Assembly: GCA_037952775.1 (NCBI GenBank)
Contig: JBANAY010000004.1
Location: 5,332,001 to 5,396,000, forward strand
Direction of reading: 5' to 3'
DNA from: Clonostachys chloroleuca
Lineage: Eukaryota; Ascomycota; Sordariomycetes; Hypocreales; Bionectriaceae
DNA length: 64,000 bases
Made by a program: the position numbers and the translations under genes
The notes under the pieces: model-generated
The model's database searches: none
Told to the model about the DNA's origin: nothing
Seen by the model: the letters and a program-made list of their open reading frames with translations, nothing else
Shown: positions 24,453-33,775 of the stretch, piece after piece
Numbering within the stretch: position 1 is the stretch's first letter
How the letters are laid out: each line of letters opens with the position of its first letter

Positions 24453-27391
24453 TTACTCCCGGCCGGAAAACGACCCCCGCATGGCCACCTCCTGATCGTA
24501 CATGCCCGACTCCTTCTTCATGTGCTTGTCGAAGCTCTGCGTCGACAGCTGCACCTTCTCGAAGAACGAGCGGTCGAGCACGGGCGCCGCGGCGGGGAGC
24601 TGGCCGCGCGACCGGGCCAGCGCGGACTGGTTCGCGTGCGAATGGATGGCCAGGCTCGAGGCGATCTGGAAGGCGCTGCGGATCTGCCGGCCGTTCCAGC
24701 AGCCGGTCGAGCGGGCGAGGTCCTCGTAGTGCTTGGTGGCGAACTCGAGGATCTCGGCGTCCTTGATCACGAGGGGGGCCTCGCCGGTCATGCGGTGGCG
24801 CTCGGCCTCTATCTCCTTGAGCTTGGCGATGTTGATCTTGAAGATCTCGCGGGTCTGAGTCTTGTCGAGAGGTGGCTGTTGGGGTTGAATGCGGTTAGTA
24901 ATTGCTTGGTGCTGAGTTGGAAGGGGGAACGCAGGAACTCACGTAGTAGAGAGACAGGTGGATTCTGCTCTTGAAAGCACTGTCAATTTGCCCAACTCTG
25001 TTGGTCGTCAGGAAGAGGAGCCCATTGTAGTACTCGAGAACTCGCAAGAAGACGGAAACGAGGGCGTTGCGCTTCATGTCGAGCTGGGATCGCTGCGATA
25101 GGAAGACATCTACACCACGACTGTTAGCTCTACTATGCACATCATTCTTGGAATAAGAAAAGCTTACCAGCCTCATCTAAGAGGAGCACGCAATCCCAGA
25201 GGTGTGCAAGACGGAAGACGTTCTTGAGAGAAGATTCGACTTCGTGGGGGGAGAGACCGAGGTCGCCGCACGTAATCACGAACAGGGGCTTGCGGTTCTC
25301 CATCGCGACAGCCTCAGCGGTCGCCGTCTTACCCACACCGGGCACACCGTGCAGCAGAACAACTAAACCACGGCCCTTGCCCTGGATCAGATCCTGGTTG
25401 GGGCCCTCAATGGCCGAGTCGGCGTAGCGGCGCTCAAGGGCCTTGCGCTGGAAGTGGGACATGACGAGCCCCCGGACCACGTCCTTGTAGTCGGACTGGA
25501 TGCGCAGGTTCTCGAACACGTTGGGCTCGCGGCGCACGGGGTTGAGGAAGTTGAGGTCGACGGGGAGGAAGCGGCGCTCGCGGAGGATGTAGGCGAACAT
25601 GCGCTTGGGGATGAGGACGAGGTCCTCGTCGCGGAGCTTGAGGAGGGCCGGGTTGGTCTCGAAGGTGCGGGAGCCCTTGACGCGGACGCGGAGGAAGGCG
25701 TCCTGGTTCAGGTTGTCGCGGCGCTGGCGGACCTCGACGCCGTCCGACTTTTGGACGATCTCGGTCTGGGAGTAGGCCAGGGACTGGCGGTTGCCGTCGA
25801 ACCAGTGCTGGACGGGCATCTCGTCGTCCTGGGCCTCGCAGTTCATCGAGTGGTTGACGGCGAGCTGGTGGAAGCTGGGGCGCCAGTCGGGCATCTTCTG
25901 GTACGCCTCGCGGAGATCGACGATCACGTCGCTCTCGACGAACTCGGGGTGGCGCATCTTCTCGTAGTCCTCGCTGTCGAGGATCTCATCATCGGGATCG
26001 TCACGGTGGCGGTGCGAGGGTGGGTTCCTGGTCAGCGACCAAGCGCTGTACTGCTGGTGTCGGTCGTCAAGGAAGTCGATGAACTTGCGGCCCTGGCTCT
26101 TGAGCGAGTCGATGAGCTCCTCGTGCCCATGGCGGTAGCGGATGGGGAAGATGTCGAGCGAGTCGATCTGGCGCTCGCCGATGAAGGGCTCGATGGTGAA
26201 CTCCTTGCGGACGGCACCGAAAGAGCTGCCGTCGTGGTCAATGTAATAGGCCTTGATCTTGAAGTTGTTGCTGTCATCGTTGCTGCCGAAGAAGTCGTCA
26301 CCAAACTCCCATCCCAGGGAACGGTCTGCGACCTCGGGCTCGGGAACAGAGACCTTGTAGGTACGCCAAACCTCGTGGTATCGACCACCGGCCTCGCCTG
26401 CTGCGGGCATGTAGATGAGGTCGCCTGGGCGAAAGAGGTACCAGAGGTCGTCAAACTTGACCTTGTCTACTTCGTTTCCGTCAAAGCGGGTGTGGAGAGG
26501 CATGACCTCCTCGTCAATGAACTTGACATAGCAACGCATGTCCCTGAGAGCCTCAGGAGTGTCCATCAGGCTGTCAACGTCCTCATCGACGTTGGAGTCG
26601 ACCGACTGAAGAGACTCAGTGTCATCCTCGTCATCACCGCCCTCCTCATCTTCATCTGACTGGGCTTCGTCGTCCTCCTCGACAGCATCGTCAAACTCCT
26701 CGACCTCATCAACAACGTCGATGGCCTCCTCTTTGGAAAGCTCCTCAGCGCTCTCGGATGAGGCCTCCTCAAAATCGGCCCACTTCTCCTCCAGAGTAGC
26801 GAGAATCTCCCTCATCTTGGGCTGGAAGTAGATCAGGGGTTTGAAGGGTCGCATGAATGTGCGGGGAGTGGACCTCGTGTTGGACTCATTCATCAGCGAG
26901 GTCAGGTATCCCAAAACGGGCTGTGACTGAACACGGATACGCGAGATCTCAGTGTCGGTAGATTGAAGCGCCTCGGTACGCTTGGCAATCTTGGCCTTGT
27001 CGGCGGCCGTGATGGGCCGTCTCTTGCGCTCGTAGGCATTGTCGTGGATGTCAAGGTACTTCTTGCGCATGCGGGCCAGGTCCTCTCGGTGTCTGTAGCC
27101 ACGCTCTCGGCGCATCTGGGCAGAGATGCTGGGGCCGACCATGAGAACATCAACGGCGGCATCGGGCTCGTCCGTTCCGCCAAAGCGGTTCTTGAAGTTC
27201 TCGAAGTTGACCTTGCGGATCTCGGGCACCTTGGGGCGCCACTTTGCCTCGACACGGCGGCGGTCGGCCAAGATGCGCTCGCGGCGCTCTGCCTCCTCCT
27301 GGAGGGCCATGAAGCCAATATCATTCCCACGAGCAGCACGGGAGGGGGCCTTGCGGCGCCCACCACGAGATGTCTGCTTGGTGCGAGCCAT
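24453..27391 (-). CDS. Fungal AAA+ ATPase with histone H3-like N-terminal tail
   Basis: complement(join(24453..24875,24943..25109,25168..27391)) encodes 937 aa; introns are GTAAGC...TAG and GTGAGT...CAG and keep frame (DEA-DVFLSQ and SLYY-PPLDKT). The protein begins ARTKQTSRGGRRKAP after Met. Residues 1-6 after Met equal histone H3 residues 1-6, and GG-KAP and SRAAR echo the rest of the tail. The ATG has a strong CAACCATGG context. A helical segment follows, then an acidic run (about 224-264, many D/E). From about 285 comes the fungal DUF7025-type lid-associated domain (RCYVKFIDEEVMPL, FRPGDLIYMP). The AAA core has Walker A GVPGVGKT (about 682), Walker B CVLLLDEAD (about 734-742), LFLTTNR and SRIHLSL. 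Relatives are uncharacterised ATPases. The tail plus acidic run hint at chromatin or histone-reader partners. Confidence 0.92.
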
Positions 27392-29251
27392 GGTTGTGTG
27401 TAAGTGAACGAAAGGAGTAAACGACTAAACAAACAAGCAGCAAGTGTATGTGGTCCTGGGGAGCAAATGTGGTAAGGAGACGTGAAGATGAGGTGTTGAG
27501 TAGGGAGAGAGAGATACAGAGGAATCCATCTTGATGAGTTGGGGCAGAAGCCGTGAGATATAAGGCCGGCTCTCTGGCATCTCGCGCGGTAACGAGGTTG
27601 TGATTCACACCGCTGTGCCGCTAAGACGAGGCCAATTCACCTCCAGCATCCATCCATTGATGTGGGCCAGCAGGCAACAGCTGCCAGTGATCGTTTCACA
27701 GCGTACAGCACAGCAGCGCGTATAGCAACATACGGCGTAGAACCCAGCACGGCCTAGCCCTAGACCGGCGCAGATCTCAGCACGGCACAGCCCAGCTCCC
27801 CGTCAATGCAGGATGCCTTGGCCACCAAGCAGTCAGCCTGCAATGAGACGGACCCAAGTGGCTAACAGGGACCACAGAGCCACTTCGACAGAATAACGAT
27901 TGTCGCGGTCACATAATAATGCTTCTTATTGTGCAATAATAATTAATTAACTCTATCCAACAATTACTCAATAATCTGGATTTTTGTTCAATGTCTACAG
28001 ATATTATGGCCGTACTTGAACAAAACACTCACTTTACAGTCGGTCCCTGTTATTCTGATGCAGCGAAGCGCCGCCACTTGATAATGCGCCACTATAATCT
28101 CACTAGCAGCAGGCTTTAGGCAGCATAGCCCAAACTCTCCAATGTTCTCACGGCAGGGACATTTCGACGGCCCAATAGTTTGCGGAGCTACCCTCCAGCT
28201 GAAACTCGGCACCCAGAGCTGACAGAGCCGTTCACTGCCCGCTAGGCCTATTATAGTATGAACATTTGCTGGTCACAAAAAGCGTGAAGTCGGTATGATT
28301 CACACTCCGAGATCCCCGCTGCATGCTTCTAAGCTCCCCTCTCCTTATCTCGTTCAAGCTACTTTGATAGGGCAGCGGATTATCTTGCGTCACCCATCCA
28401 CGACAAGCATGTCCATCCTGCTGAGCTGATTTAACTATTCTAGGTCACAATTCTCAGATCAATGCATCTGCCATTGATAGTTGGCGTTCCGGCCTGGGCA
28501 TGATGTCCTACGATGCACCTCTTTGGACGGACTGCGGAGCCAAGCAGTGGCTGGAACTAAACCTGCCACACCGGAACGCCACAGCTCAGCCTCGAATCCC
28601 CTGCATTCATCTTTTGTCAGAGCCGGTCAATGTTACTCTAGTGGCTTAGAACACGGTTGGGGGTTTAAAGAGTTATTTTTTTTGATAACTTGGGCCTTGT
28701 TCTTTATTCTTTGGACTTGTCATCGACTTTAATTCGTTACACCAAGAAAATACTAACATATTGTCCCGACTAACAATTGATCAATGAAGCGATCGATATT
28801 TATTGCCAGAGAGCCTTGTACCCTTCTCCGTCTCGTCGCTACTGGGCAAAAATAACAACAACAAAAATTACAACAAGACAGTACATAAAGAGGCGATAGC
28901 GGGCCTCCTGCTCGATGAATTGTTATTGCCGTTTGAGAGCAGCGCACGGTTTGGTACTTGGTCGCTTCGAGGCGATATTGGGCAGAGAAACAAGCAGGTC
29001 ATATGCAAACAGAACTAACAACGTGTCAGCAGCGACCTAAGGCGAGCAAACTTGTAGGACGTTATACCTATAGAGTGAGGACGATTGGACCCTCAGACTT
29101 GAAGCCGGCGGCAGCCATCGCAAACTAGAGACCTTTTTTTATATATATATTTTTTTTTTATAATTTTACCCAGAATAAAGTTGCGTATCATCGTCATCAA
29201 TCGCCGAACCATGGGAGCCAGAGAACTTGGACAGAAAGGCTCGAGCTTAGC
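27392..29251. other. Intergenic, with AT-rich island and T tract
   Basis: The right-hand side is downstream of the minus-strand carrier gene. 27915-27960 is an AT-rich island (ATAATAATTAATTAAC) in otherwise mixed sequence. Around 29130-29163 lies a T/TA tract (TTTTTTTATATATATATTTT) that would be A-rich in the carrier's 3' region. Small frames at 27988-29018 have no support. Confidence 0.5.
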
Positions 29252-31206
29252 CTAGATACAGTATCTGAAATGCTTGTTCTCCTTGTCGGTCAAATCATCA
29301 AAGCTCTCCAGGGCATCTTCAGTTGAGTTGGGTGCATGCAAGAGTCCTTCCTTTTGCTTTCTTCGGGTTTCGAGATAACAGTACGTTGTATAAATGATTT
29401 GAAGACCCATTGCGCCTGCGTATGCCCCGGCTAAGCCTTTGATGGCTGTTGGGTATCGTGGGACTTCTGCTGCAAGAAACAGGTGCGGCCCAGCGATGTT
29501 TCCCGCACAATAGATGCTGATCAAATTAGCAACGAGAGTAATAAGGATAGTTGAGAGGCATGGGAGGCATACACAAAGTATACACCGAGAACAAAACTTC
29601 TCTTGGTGTGGCCGGCGGTATTTAATCCAGGTAATGTCCAGTTTAGAATGACCGGAGAGCCAAGAATGCCTTGCAACCAGCACATGCCAACCAAGGCAAA
29701 CCGGTGTTCTATGTCGATCTTCATTATTCCGATTAGACCAGCTAGGCCTGGAAGGCAAGATACTATTAGGTACCGGAGTTAGTCTCAGAGAGAAATATCT
29801 ATCTCATAATCACAAGGTAATGTCGACACTTACTAACGATTGTGGCGCCGACCATGTTTGGTAGTCTTGATAGGTAGCCAAAAGCAATAACCATTACAAG
29901 TTCAAGACCTCCTACCGGAGTCTGGAGAAGGCTTGTACGCAGTGCATCATAACCAAAGCCCTTTATGATGGCAGACAAGAAGTTTGCCACACCGCCGTTC
30001 AGAATGCCATAGCAGATGGCCATGAGCCAGAGCAGCCAAACCTTGAAATCAAGAGCGGCCTCTTTGATTTGGCCTGGGACAATGACTTTGTGCTTTAGTC
30101 CTGTCTGGTTCCGTGAAATACGCCACACAGCGACAATTCTTTCGTATTCGGTCAACATCTTCGCGTTATGCGGACCATCAGGTAGGTAGGCGTAGATCAC
30201 AAACCCCCAGAGGATAGTCATGACTCCTACGATCTATATTGAAAATTAGTAAGAAAGCATGAGAGCCCAGAAATGAAGATCTTGGAAAATCAAGTCCAAA
30301 GGGTTTCTTACGAGGTAAATGAGTTTCCATTGAGGGATAGTCAGGCCAGTCGCGTGCCCAGCCCCATAAGCAAGAAGCGCACCTACGATGGAAGCTACCC
30401 CGTTCACCGAAAGCCAAAATGAACTTCGCAAACTCTGTTCATCACGAGTCCAAAGCATGGATGTAAGGATAATGAATGCAGGTGAGATGACAGCCTCAAG
30501 TAGCCCGAGGAAGAACCGAATGGCGAAAAAGCCCGCGAAGTTGAAGACTGCCGCCTACATTCACCTCAAAATCAGTGTACTGCATGTGAACAAACTGTAT
30601 CTGACCCGTACCCTCACTCACCTGAAGCATACACACCGCCCCCCATACGAATAACATTACTCCGATGAGCTTTCCAATGGGATATCTCTGCAGCATGATT
30701 TGCCATGGATAAGCACCAACGAGCCAGCCGATGTATAGAGCAGATGACACCCATGCGTAGTCATCTCCTTTCATGTTTGTATCGGCCTGTAAGCCGTATG
30801 CGTTGGAATAGTTGAGACTAAATTGGGTGGCTCAGTGGTTCATCCATGATCTGAATAGGAGTTGACCTAACTTACGTTTGTTTGTCCAAGAAGCTCAGCA
30901 TATACGTCATCATCATCTGCCATGAGTATTGTTAGGATTTAACTGCATAACTCGAAGCTGATAATATCTAGAACTCCTTACCAGTGGCAACACGTAGAAA
31001 TCGAGCTTTCTGCGGATCTTGACAGAGTCTCGCTCCAACTGATGCTCTTCATATTGCAGAGATTGTTGAAAGTACGCCTTTCCGAGCTCGTTTAGGTCCA
31101 TTCTTTGGCCTTTGAGTCGGCTGATGAGCCCAACGGAGCGAGAAGTCCCATTTTCATGGTCGCTGGCCGATGTAACAGGTGCATCAACCTCTTTGATCTT
31201 AGACAT
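29252..31206 (-). CDS. MFS carrier, Dal5/Tna1 (anion:cation symporter) type
   Basis: Seven exons, complement(join(29252..29516,29573..29762,29834..30233,30312..30554,30622..30817,30876..30916,30982..31206)), give 519 aa with every join in frame. After a charged N-terminus, helix 1 reads PLMMMTYMLSFLDKQTLNYSNAYG, the position where this family has its D-R/K-x-N motif. Further helices follow, including WVSSALYIGWLVGAYPW and GWARD-like loop residues, then LWLMAICYGILNGGVANFLSAIIKGFGYD. The family takes up allantoate, nicotinate, dipeptides and other carboxylates with protons. It is divergent from the amidase gene 663 bp away, so the amidase substrate or its product is a reasonable guess for cargo. 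The tail is hydrophilic. Confidence 0.9.
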
Positions 31207-31868
31207 TATAAGTGTGGTGAGTGCAGCTCGTAGTGAAAACTTGTGTAGATTGTTACAAATTACTTGATGTAACAAATACAGAGATCGGCAGATAGAAACC
31301 TGTGACAAAATCATTGCTTTTATAGTCACAGCACCGCTGCTTCCACACCGAATCTGTAGAGGAGGAGGTGGTATCCTTCAACTGTGTTGAGAGTCGGTTA
31401 TCAAGAGTCCCTGCTTTTACGGTGCTATCTATGTGTGAACCAAGTCTTTGACCTAGGGCATTGATTGGCTCATGCTACGAACGATTCCCATGGGTTTATC
31501 TCATGACTCGACCCCGCACCATGCTATCACGGCCGCTCGGAAATTGGTGGTATTCCGATAGCGTAGATAGCAAAGATAGCCGGGCTGATGTTAAATCCGG
31601 ATCCTATTCAAGCTCAATGAGAACTCCTGGTTGATAAGATTCGCGTACATGGCCACATTAATAATTGGAGAATGAGGCCGACGCCCCAGAAGCTCACGGG
31701 AACAATCCTCGAAGCATACGACGTATATAATAGAGGCAAGCCAGAAATATCCTCTTATCTTCCTTGAACTAGATGCCATTGATTCAGCCTCAAGTGAGTA
31801 ACCAATCAAAGGCTATTCTTAGTTCAAACTGCTTCGTTGTTCCTTAGCTATTATCTTAGCCAAGCAAA
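31207..31868. promoter_or_regulatory. Bidirectional promoter with GATA cluster
   Basis: Shared 5' region of the carrier and the amidase. Three HGATAR sites lie within 24 bp: CGATAG 31556-31561, AGATAG 31565-31570 and AGATAG 31574-31579. Another (CTATCT on plus) is at 31425-31430. TATAAAAG on the minus strand at 31324-31317 lies about 115 bp before the carrier start. GATA sites are targets of the nitrogen regulator AreA/NIT2, so derepression on poor nitrogen is likely. Confidence 0.65.
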
Positions 31869-33775
31869 ATGTCTGCTACCGCGACCGAGGTCAGCACAAC
31901 GTCCTTGAAGGCCCCCGAATCATGGGAGGTGGTGAGAGACAAAAAGAGACAGGAACAGCTTTCCAGAATCCCGGAAGAATGGCACCTGACGGATGCGATG
32001 CGCCCGCCGAAGGGGACTGTGGATGTTCGGCCTGTTGCCCTAACCTCTGGAATCCTTACTGAACGAGAGCAATTGATCACTGGAGAAACATATGACGCTA
32101 CCTCGTTGGCAGAGGAAATCTCCAAAGGTACATTCACAGCGACGGAGACAATCACGGCCTTTTGCAAAAGGGCTGCTATTTGTCAACAGCTATGTCAGGC
32201 GTTGACGGAGATATGCTTTACCGAAGCAATTGAAAAGGCAAAGAAATTGGACGAGCATTTCCAAAAGACTGGGAAGACGGTGGGCCCATTGCATGGCTTG
32301 CCGATGAGTTTTAAGGTGAGATCTGGCTTCCAATACGACCTCCTTCTTTATGAGCATCACACTTTACTAACTAGGTCAAAGGAATGCTTCCATATCAAGG
32401 GATTCGATGCAAGCAACGGCTACATTTCTCGGTGCTTTGACCCATCCACCATGACAACCCCCATCATCCAACTGGTGGAGGAAGCTGGGGCAGTTGTCAT
32501 AGCAAAGACCAATGTTCCACAGACCATGCTTGTTGCTGAGTGCGATAATAATGTGTTTGGGCATACTGGTAACCCAGTCGTCAACCACCTGTCCTGCGGT
32601 GGCAGTAGCGGCGGTGAAGGGTCTCTGTCAGCTTTTCGAGGCAATGTGTTGGGCATTGGTACTGACGTCGGTGGATCGATCCGGTATGTGACCATGGGAA
32701 AAGCTCAAGAACTGCATTCAAAATTGACTTGTCTACCAAAAGCCTTCCTGCTGCCTTCAACGGTGTGTATGGTTACAAACCCTCGGTCGGAATTCTTCCT
32801 TTCATCGGCTACGCTGCCTCGGGCTGGACGGGCGTCAATACAGGTATACCCGCCGTATTGGGGCCACTGGCCCATTCAGCGCGTGACATGACTCTTTTCA
32901 CAAAGGCGGTCCGCTCTTACGAGCCTTGGAAGTTTGATCCTGCCGTTATTGCTGGGGCAATGGAGCAACAAACCCCATTATCTGGACAGAAACCCGTCAT
33001 CGGTATTCTCCACGCATCGGGACTAACTCCTCACCCCCCATGCGTAGAGCAGTTCGCGAGGCACAGGAAAAACTCACGGCTGCCAGATATGAGGTCATAG
33101 ACTTTACTCCCATCTGCCCCGACTTTGCAGAAATCCGCGAGATATGTAGCCAGTTATTCACTTTGGATGGTCTTTCATACCAGAGAAGAGAGCTTTCCAA
33201 GGCAGCTGAGCCAGTGGTTCCGTCCGTGGCAAATTTTGGATACTGGGATCTCCCCAGAAAAACACACGAAGAGGTTTGGGAATGGAACACTAAGAAGGGA
33301 GCCATGCAGAAGAAGATGCTGGATGCTTGGCAACAAGCCGGGATTGACTTGCTCATTACCCCAGCTGCCCCGCATACAGCTATTACAAAGGACAAGTGTA
33401 CATCAGAGTTGTACACCGTAGTCTGGAACGCCATGGACGTGAGTTCAAGTTGAAATGCAATTTCACAAAAGCTCGGTAATGCTGACGCTCGTTTCTAGTA
33501 TCCGGCCGTCATCATGCCGTTCTCGAAGGTGGATCCTACCTTAGATCCCAAGGACGAGGACTTCAAGGCCATAAGCATTATGGACCATGATATTCAAACG
33601 TTGTGTATGGCTATTTTGTTCCTATATCTCTTCATTATTGCTAACGTGATTTTTAGATGACCCGCAAGTCATGGCTGGTTCTCCAGTATCCATTCAAATC
33701 GTCGCTCCAAGACTGCAAGATTCGGCTTTGCTGGAGCACGCTGAGATCTTGGACAAGATCTTCAGGGGTGCGTAA
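31869..33775 (+). pseudogene. Amidase (amidase-signature family), frame broken once
   Basis: Exons 31869..32315, 32382..32683, 32743..33438, 33499..33604 and 33657..33775 give about 556 aa if one base is added. The catalytic Lys-Ser-Ser set is visible: HGLPMSFKE (Lys), CGGSSGGEG (cis-Ser) and GTDVGGSIR (nucleophile Ser). LITPAAPHTAITKD and YPAVIMPFSKVD are typical of fungal acetamidase-like enzymes that hydrolyse amides to acid plus ammonia. In exon 3 the frame shifts at a run of six C (33034-33039). GLTPHPP is in one frame and the expected next part MRRAVREAQEKL is in another. A seventh C would join them. All splice sites are intact, so this is either a very recent mutation or a homopolymer sequencing error. 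Confidence 0.85.

Follow-up and report, generated by a model that had tools for sequence, protein, structure and literature searches.

A probable mimic of the histone H3 tail at the N-terminus of an AAA+ ATPase of Clonostachys chloroleuca, and histone-tail-like segments in unrelated proteins of the same fungus

The window, a stretch of 64,000 nucleotides from the genome of Clonostachys chloroleuca, contains an ATPase gene whose product begins almost as histone H3 does. The question raised by this locus is whether such a start is an accident of basic composition or a mimic of the H3 tail and, if it is a mimic, what it could serve. The earlier note on this DNA described ARTKQT directly after the initiator Met, Ser in place of A7 and R8 retained, and all of these are seen at 27326-27391 on the minus strand; the plus-strand reading of the same positions holds nothing resembling the H3 tail. 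The later H3 pieces that it listed in MARTKQTSRGGRRKAPSRAARG (GG, KAP and SRAAR) are present, but their likeness to H3 is loose. The segment starts a 749-aa open frame on the minus strand. The ATPase gene extends from 27391 to 24453 (minus strand) and contains two GT-AG introns, the removal of which gives a protein of 937 aa, identical at 921/937 residues to P0003 of Clonostachys byssicola. The features of the gene are as follows.

27425..27427, minus strand: in-frame TAG, 36 nt upstream of the ATG, with no intervening ATG in the same frame
27326..27391, minus strand: N-terminal H3-tail-like segment MARTKQTSRGGRRKAPSRAARG (translation and N-terminus statistics)
25168..27391, minus strand: exon 1 of the DUF7025/AAA+ ATPase (spliced protein compared with P0003)
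26567..26764, minus strand: acidic low-complexity stretch, about residues 210-275 (translation)
26132..26476, minus strand: DUF7025 (PF22942), residues 306-420 (Pfam, E 9.4e-25)
25325..25348, minus strand: Walker A, GVPGVGKT, residues 682-689 (translation)
25110..25167, minus strand: intron 1, within the Walker B codons (spliced model)
24943..25109, minus strand: exon 2, with the end of Walker B LLLDEAD, sensor TTNR and SRIH
24876..24942, minus strand: intron 2 (spliced model)
24453..24875, minus strand: exon 3, AAA lid region, stop codon at 24453-24455 (lid domain detected in P0003)

The Pfam matches of the ATPase, DUF7025 and the AAA core (PF00004) with Walker A, Walker B and sensor, assign it to this family, and the fungal AAA lid (AAA_lid_13) was detected at the C-terminus of P0003 and P0006. 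The histone fold (PF00125) was not found in the ATPase by Pfam, so that the tail alone is held in common with H3. A PDB sequence search returned general AAA+ proteins, e.g. VCP/CDC48-like ATPases, among the best 60 of 151 matches, and the structure predicted from 39 orthologues is poor (mean pLDDT 46). Elsewhere in the window a minus-strand frame at 29252-31329 resembles a membrane transporter and a plus-strand one at 31869-33100 is amidase-like, both judged by reading alone.

The window ATPase was not returned when its own genome was searched with the H3 tail at E up to 10, because a match of only seven or eight residues is below what such a search can pick up, and the case for this tail therefore rests on family statistics. 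The best 120 of 196 AAA matches were used, hence the counts refer to the nearest relatives. Position matching to H3 1-10 included 114/120 rows (four with short N-termini and two without an anchor were left out), whereas the other tests (local alignment, tree, extra pieces) were based on 115 rows after removal of five truncated ones; for the tree, reversed-H3 and pairwise-identity counts, two of the rows were cut back so that they start at a later Met. At least 8 of 10 residues match H3 1-10 in 15/114 homologues, whereas own-letter shuffles average 0.0000 such rows, or 0.0005 when the first two residues were fixed. At least four matches were found in 71/115 rows and three or fewer in 44/115; at least five matches to reversed H3 occurred in 0/115. 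Local alignment surpassed all 200 own-letter shuffles for H3 in 19/115 rows, for H4 in six and for reversed H3 in 0/115. In the AAA family the identity to H3 1-8 at the very N-terminus thus goes beyond composition, and the N-terminus of the ATPase is very probably a real mimic of the H3 tail.

The exact H3-like 10-letter start is present in 4/120 AAA rows (P0006, P0055, P0010 and P0020) and MARTKQTTRK opens 4/5 rows of the Trichoderma group; P0003, the near-identical relative of the window ATPase, matches H3 1-10 at 7/10 positions. Residues identical to H3 were counted in the 114 rows as A1 89, R2 85, T3 58, K4 65 and Q5 44, and 39 chosen orthologues have the majority consensus MARTKQxxR. On the Xylariales side many relatives start with MARGK or otherwise. 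Extra H3 pieces are rare in AAA tails (P0043 GKAPRKQL, P0026 KAARKSVPS, P0063 APRKRL and a weak one in P0045) and exceed all 300 shuffles in 4/115 rows, compared with 0/115 for reversed H3. Patterns encoding ARTKQT occur at seven places in the 59-Mb genome and the same patterns read backwards at four; in three of the seven places, i.e. in H3, a VIT/VWA gene and the window ATPase gene, ARTKQT directly follows an ATG.

The expectation that the motif would recur in orthologues while the downstream residues drift was borne out by the alignment. The N-anchored mean pairwise identity of AAA rows is 0.47 for residues 2-5, drops to 0.17 for residues 6-9 and lies between 0.15 and 0.08 beyond. The conservation peak falls on A-R-T-K, the residues held by N-terminal H3 readers. 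Methylation of K4 by COMPASS, which the earlier note had put forward, did not hold as a general reason: K4 is not conserved across the AAA family (65/114 rows; the window ATPase itself has it) and a mostly Fusarium clade of 17 rows, 12 of them named Fusarium by the sources, retains R2 and T3 in 17/17, A1 in 14 and Q5 in 14, with K4 in 0/17. Since the lysine is missing from every row of a clade that keeps R2-T3, K4 methylation cannot generally account for the likeness. If a single footprint is selected throughout, it would be A-R-T-x-Q, not K4. On the body tree of AAA relatives the label 'at least 8/10' changes 10 times and 'starts ARTKQ' 13 times (range 10-15 depending on the label), therefore the motif has often been lost or gained, the two directions being inseparable. 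The same genome has 12 DUF7025 loci, and in the 3-kb stretches inspected, in which intron-split starts are missable, an H3-like start was found at the window locus alone. One other DUF7025 locus (L043) has the word AARKS in a different frame.

The H3 query against the 59.4-Mb genome returned, besides histones, three unrelated loci.

L022:3026-5872 (C3:1357525-1360371), minus strand: VIT/VWA protein, 949 aa (Pfam; H3-tail genome search)
L023:3014-4522 and downstream (C1), minus strand: reverse-transcriptase-related gene, RVT (H3-tail genome search)
L024:2555-3649 (C3:26887554-26888648), minus strand: 365-aa protein (H3-tail genome search)

Four mutually unrelated proteins of one fungus bear H3-tail copies. 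The VIT/VWA protein combines an H3-like N-terminal start with two tandem copies resembling H3 14-31 in its last quarter, the second being PRKQLANKTARKSAPS. In the RVT gene a 35-residue segment resembling H3 2-35 lies in a linker and is followed by an acidic stretch. The 365-aa protein starts with MVRTKQVARKSTGGRAPRKQLRSK; its H3 likeness covers approximately the part encoded by H3 exon 1, and its match to the PAF histone-like domain PF15715 (E 0.046) is below the cut-off. The reversed H3 tail gave no match in the genome, an empty result of little weight by itself. The H4-tail search returned two matches, both of 97% identity to that tail, which we regard as H4 genes, and no further H4-like gene at the sensitivity of this search. 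A weak H3-tail match is located at C4:7957689 (E 0.39) in a 54-aa frame.

For the VIT/VWA protein the best 120 of 1884 relatives were inspected and an ungapped match of at least 8/10 was counted as a copy. At that level 13 have an H3 copy and the other 107 have none. The 13 are made up of five from the Clonostachys group, six from the Trichoderma group (five of the six with a 27-residue H3-like segment), P0217 of Cylindrodendrum, which joins an N-terminal MARTKQTLRK to four tandem internal copies, and P0204 with one weaker copy. Four of the best 120 of 1884 start with ARTKQ. The copy label changes four times on the body tree, all four changes being forced by starred branches; long branches meet on this tree, and gains and losses are inseparable.

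The RVT family was studied in the best 120 of 678 relatives, part of which are called reverse transcriptases by the sources. The whole-protein H3 score lies above all 60 shuffled H3 tails in 65 of these rows. The linker ahead of the reverse-transcriptase part is H3-like in 68 and H4-like in 50 of the best 120 of 678 (34 are like both tails, 84 like at least one), against four for reversed H3 and six for reversed H4; in five rows the gene model has a linker shorter than 45 aa. Near-complete copies of H3 2-35 are present in 3/4 nearest Clonostachys-group rows (P0246 is without one), in Fusarium rows, e.g. P0267, H4-like GLGTGGAMRHRKI comes after H3 15-31, and Verticillium row P0312 holds RGLGRGGAKRHRKI. 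H3 pieces also occur in rows of Bisporella (P0337) and Lepidopterella (P0355), which we place outside Sordariomycetes. On the RVT tree the H3 label changes 23 times against a shuffled mean of 39.8 and the H4 label 18 times against 36.8, gains and losses being inseparable.

In these RVT copies H3 R17 is present in 54/57, and H4 R17 and R19 in 46/46. The H3 K27 position is K in 32, R in 14 and M in 3 of 53, and the H4 K16 position is M in 24/46 and K in 17/46, with Met making up 3.2% of the linker letters. As K27 is replaced by R in 14/53 and H4 K16 by M in 24/46, it is not the modifiable lysines that are conserved. At L023:3030-3250 (minus strand) a donor-like GTAGGT lies just 5′ of the H3-like segment with possible acceptors 3′, and the mimic may be spliced out of some transcripts. 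We take the C1 locus to be an rvt gene. The rvt genes are described as domesticated and stress-related, and a histone-tail linker, as found in the L023 family, is not mentioned in the excerpt of their description (PMC10680173).

Codons of the copies were compared with those of the genome's own H3 gene, the expectation being derived from the codon usage of each gene. The RVT copy keeps 30/35 residues and shares 9/30 codons (13.0 expected). The first internal VIT copy keeps 17/17 residues and shares six codons (5.8 expected), the second keeps 15/17 and shares eight (5.3 expected, P 0.10), and the ten residues of the VIT N-terminus share three (3.0 expected). The 365-aa protein shares seven codons over 19 residues (4.8 expected, P 0.16), and the AAA tail four over seven residues (3.6 expected), a comparison that has no power. 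None of the six tests gave a significant excess, and two lean mildly upward (the second VIT copy and the 365-aa protein). With the residues kept and the codons near chance, the copies would therefore be old and under protein-level selection, or would have converged on the peptide. Recent capture of H3 is disfavoured for the longer copies, as codon sharing shows no significant excess.

We propose that the ATPase mimic, the first eight or so H3 residues, works as a docking peptide for an H3-tail-binding nuclear protein, a role for which the sequences make about an even case. Selection at the protein level would have maintained the mimic or re-created it time and again. With Ala at position 2, removal of the initiator Met is favoured; this would expose a free N-terminal Ala-Arg-Thr-(Lys), carried on a basic tail that precedes the acidic stretch and then the AAA+ motor. 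In the nucleus this end would be bound by a protein whose usual ligand is the H3 N-terminus; candidate partners are a PHD-type reader, an enzyme of the H3 tail (e.g. LSD1 or COMPASS) and the H3T3 kinase/reader pair. Binding might tether the ATPase to chromatin regulators, or the ATPase might compete with nucleosomes.

One competing view takes the AAA N-terminus for a mere basic tail (NLS or RNA/DNA binding) with a coincidental likeness to H3. R, K, G, T and P are indeed abundant in AAA tails, the H3 likeness of many relatives is loose and P0003, near-identical to the window ATPase, reaches 7/10. Such a tail would hardly give at least 8/10 matches in 15/114 rows against a shuffled mean of 0.0000, nor local alignments past all 200 shuffles in 19/115 rows for H3 and 0/115 for reversed H3, and we regard this view as improbable. 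Chance likeness from basic composition is likewise disfavoured by the shuffles, the reversed-H3 controls and the reversed-tail search of the genome. A mitochondrial targeting peptide is the least probable of the alternatives: the N-terminus is basic, its first 20 residues include no acidic ones, and some relatives are named 'related to TOB3' in the sources, TOB3 being an older name of ATAD3, but mitochondrial targeting needs no exact H3 match and the drifting tail contains Gly and Pro, with no helix before residue 26 in the (poor) model. Very unlikely, too, is the persistence of H3-like pieces without function as histone-gene fragments captured through exons or transposons. Capture and amplification of histone H3 by a hAT transposon has been documented in other fungi (PMC6710886, excerpt), and the 365-aa protein, whose match ends about at the limit of H3 exon 1, leans towards shared codons (7 vs 4.8, P 0.16). 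An idle relic, however, should have lost residues as well, and residues are retained here without a significant codon excess; moreover, the VIT and RVT copies cross the H3 intron site and are intron-free.

The main rival to docking on chromatin proteins is that the mimics are histone-type nuclear localisation signals binding karyopherins such as Kap123. The ligands of Kap123 include H3 1-28 and H4 1-34 (PMC5677370, excerpt), and both tails are used in RVT linkers. H4 R17 and R19, which are Kap123 contacts, are kept in 46/46 RVT copies and H3 K23 in 44/55, and a K-to-R change of H3 K14 has a minor effect (PMC5677370, excerpt). On the other hand H3 K14, a key contact in the same excerpt (PMC5677370), remains K in only 25/52 RVT copies, with 16 having Q or A there. 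M replaces H4 K16 in 24/46, although the effect of K16A or K16Q is mild (PMC5677370). A run of three K/R already lies upstream in 61/82 RVT linkers with a histone word, the AAA mimic stops short of K14, and plain basic clusters would suffice for import. On balance we find the import signal an unlikely explanation.

Docking peptides for H3/H4-tail-binding chromatin proteins are our best guess for the whole class. As readers of a free N-terminus do not apply to the internal VIT and RVT copies, one partner cannot serve all. More speculatively, filamentous ascomycetes might run a histone-tail-mimic code, in which unrelated proteins repeatedly gain and keep H3/H4 modules plugging into chromatin writers, readers or chaperones and the lysine-to-methionine forms (H4 K16M-like in 24/46 and H3 K27M-like in 3/53 RVT copies) might be traps for histone-modifying enzymes or baits that these enzymes cannot modify; we put this forward as a possibility against which we lean. 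That histone imitation in these fungi is real, old and repeated is how the data look.

To our knowledge few non-histone proteins contain a nearly literal copy of a histone tail. Viral and host mimics are mostly short motifs around one lysine, whereas the fungal copies extend to up to about 35 residues and include H4-tail pieces. No near-identity to H3 is known for SNAG sequences, whereas in the AAA relatives identity reaches 10/10 residues. Common to them is the principle: SNAG domains of repressors such as GFI1 and SNAI1 present an N-terminal H3-mimic peptide that occupies the cleft of LSD1, an H3-tail enzyme (PMC5896174, excerpt), and NS1, ORF8 and the H3K9 mimics of the G9a/EHMT type, compared over 10-residue segments, likewise represent short H3-like linear motifs outside histones (PMC10611923, excerpt). 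The closest analogue in the manner of working is PAF15/PCLAF, a non-histone protein with an N-terminal H3 mimic as proposed for the ATPase, whose VRTK N-terminus the UHRF1 PHD finger grips in the manner of H3 ARTK (PMC7060239, excerpt). PAF15/PCLAF is a PCNA-bound intrinsically disordered protein, whereas the fungal carrier is an ATPase, in which Pfam found no match to the PAF domain (PF15715). Among the matches listed from open-licence PMC titles and abstract openings, none described H3-tail mimics of this type in non-histone proteins of fungi, and DUF7025 was absent from the best 10 of 24 papers in one of the listings.

What sets the fungal case apart is the recurrence of mimicry in four proteins of a single fungus that are not related to one another, the pairing of H3 and H4 in the RVT family and the spread of relatives over several fungal orders. 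Binding of these peptides to the proteins that act on H3/H4 tails, if it occurs, would connect three kinds of protein with chromatin: VIT/VWA proteins, a domesticated reverse transcriptase and an uncharacterised ATPase. Antibodies and reader assays for fungal H3 marks might then detect non-histone targets, and the natural variants (K4-less, K27R, K27M, K16M) would be useful for dissecting the needs of tail readers.

Histone-like starts besides H3 are slightly above shuffles among the AAA rows: at least five N-anchored matches were counted for H4 in 4/115 (0.2 expected) and for H2A in three (0.09 expected). Five of the 115 relatives (P0056, P0067, P0082, P0084 and P0110) start with MTGR, and the N-terminus of P0084 is H4-tail-like, MTGRGRGKKGSGRRP, as if the tail of one and the same protein could be modelled on either H3 or H4.
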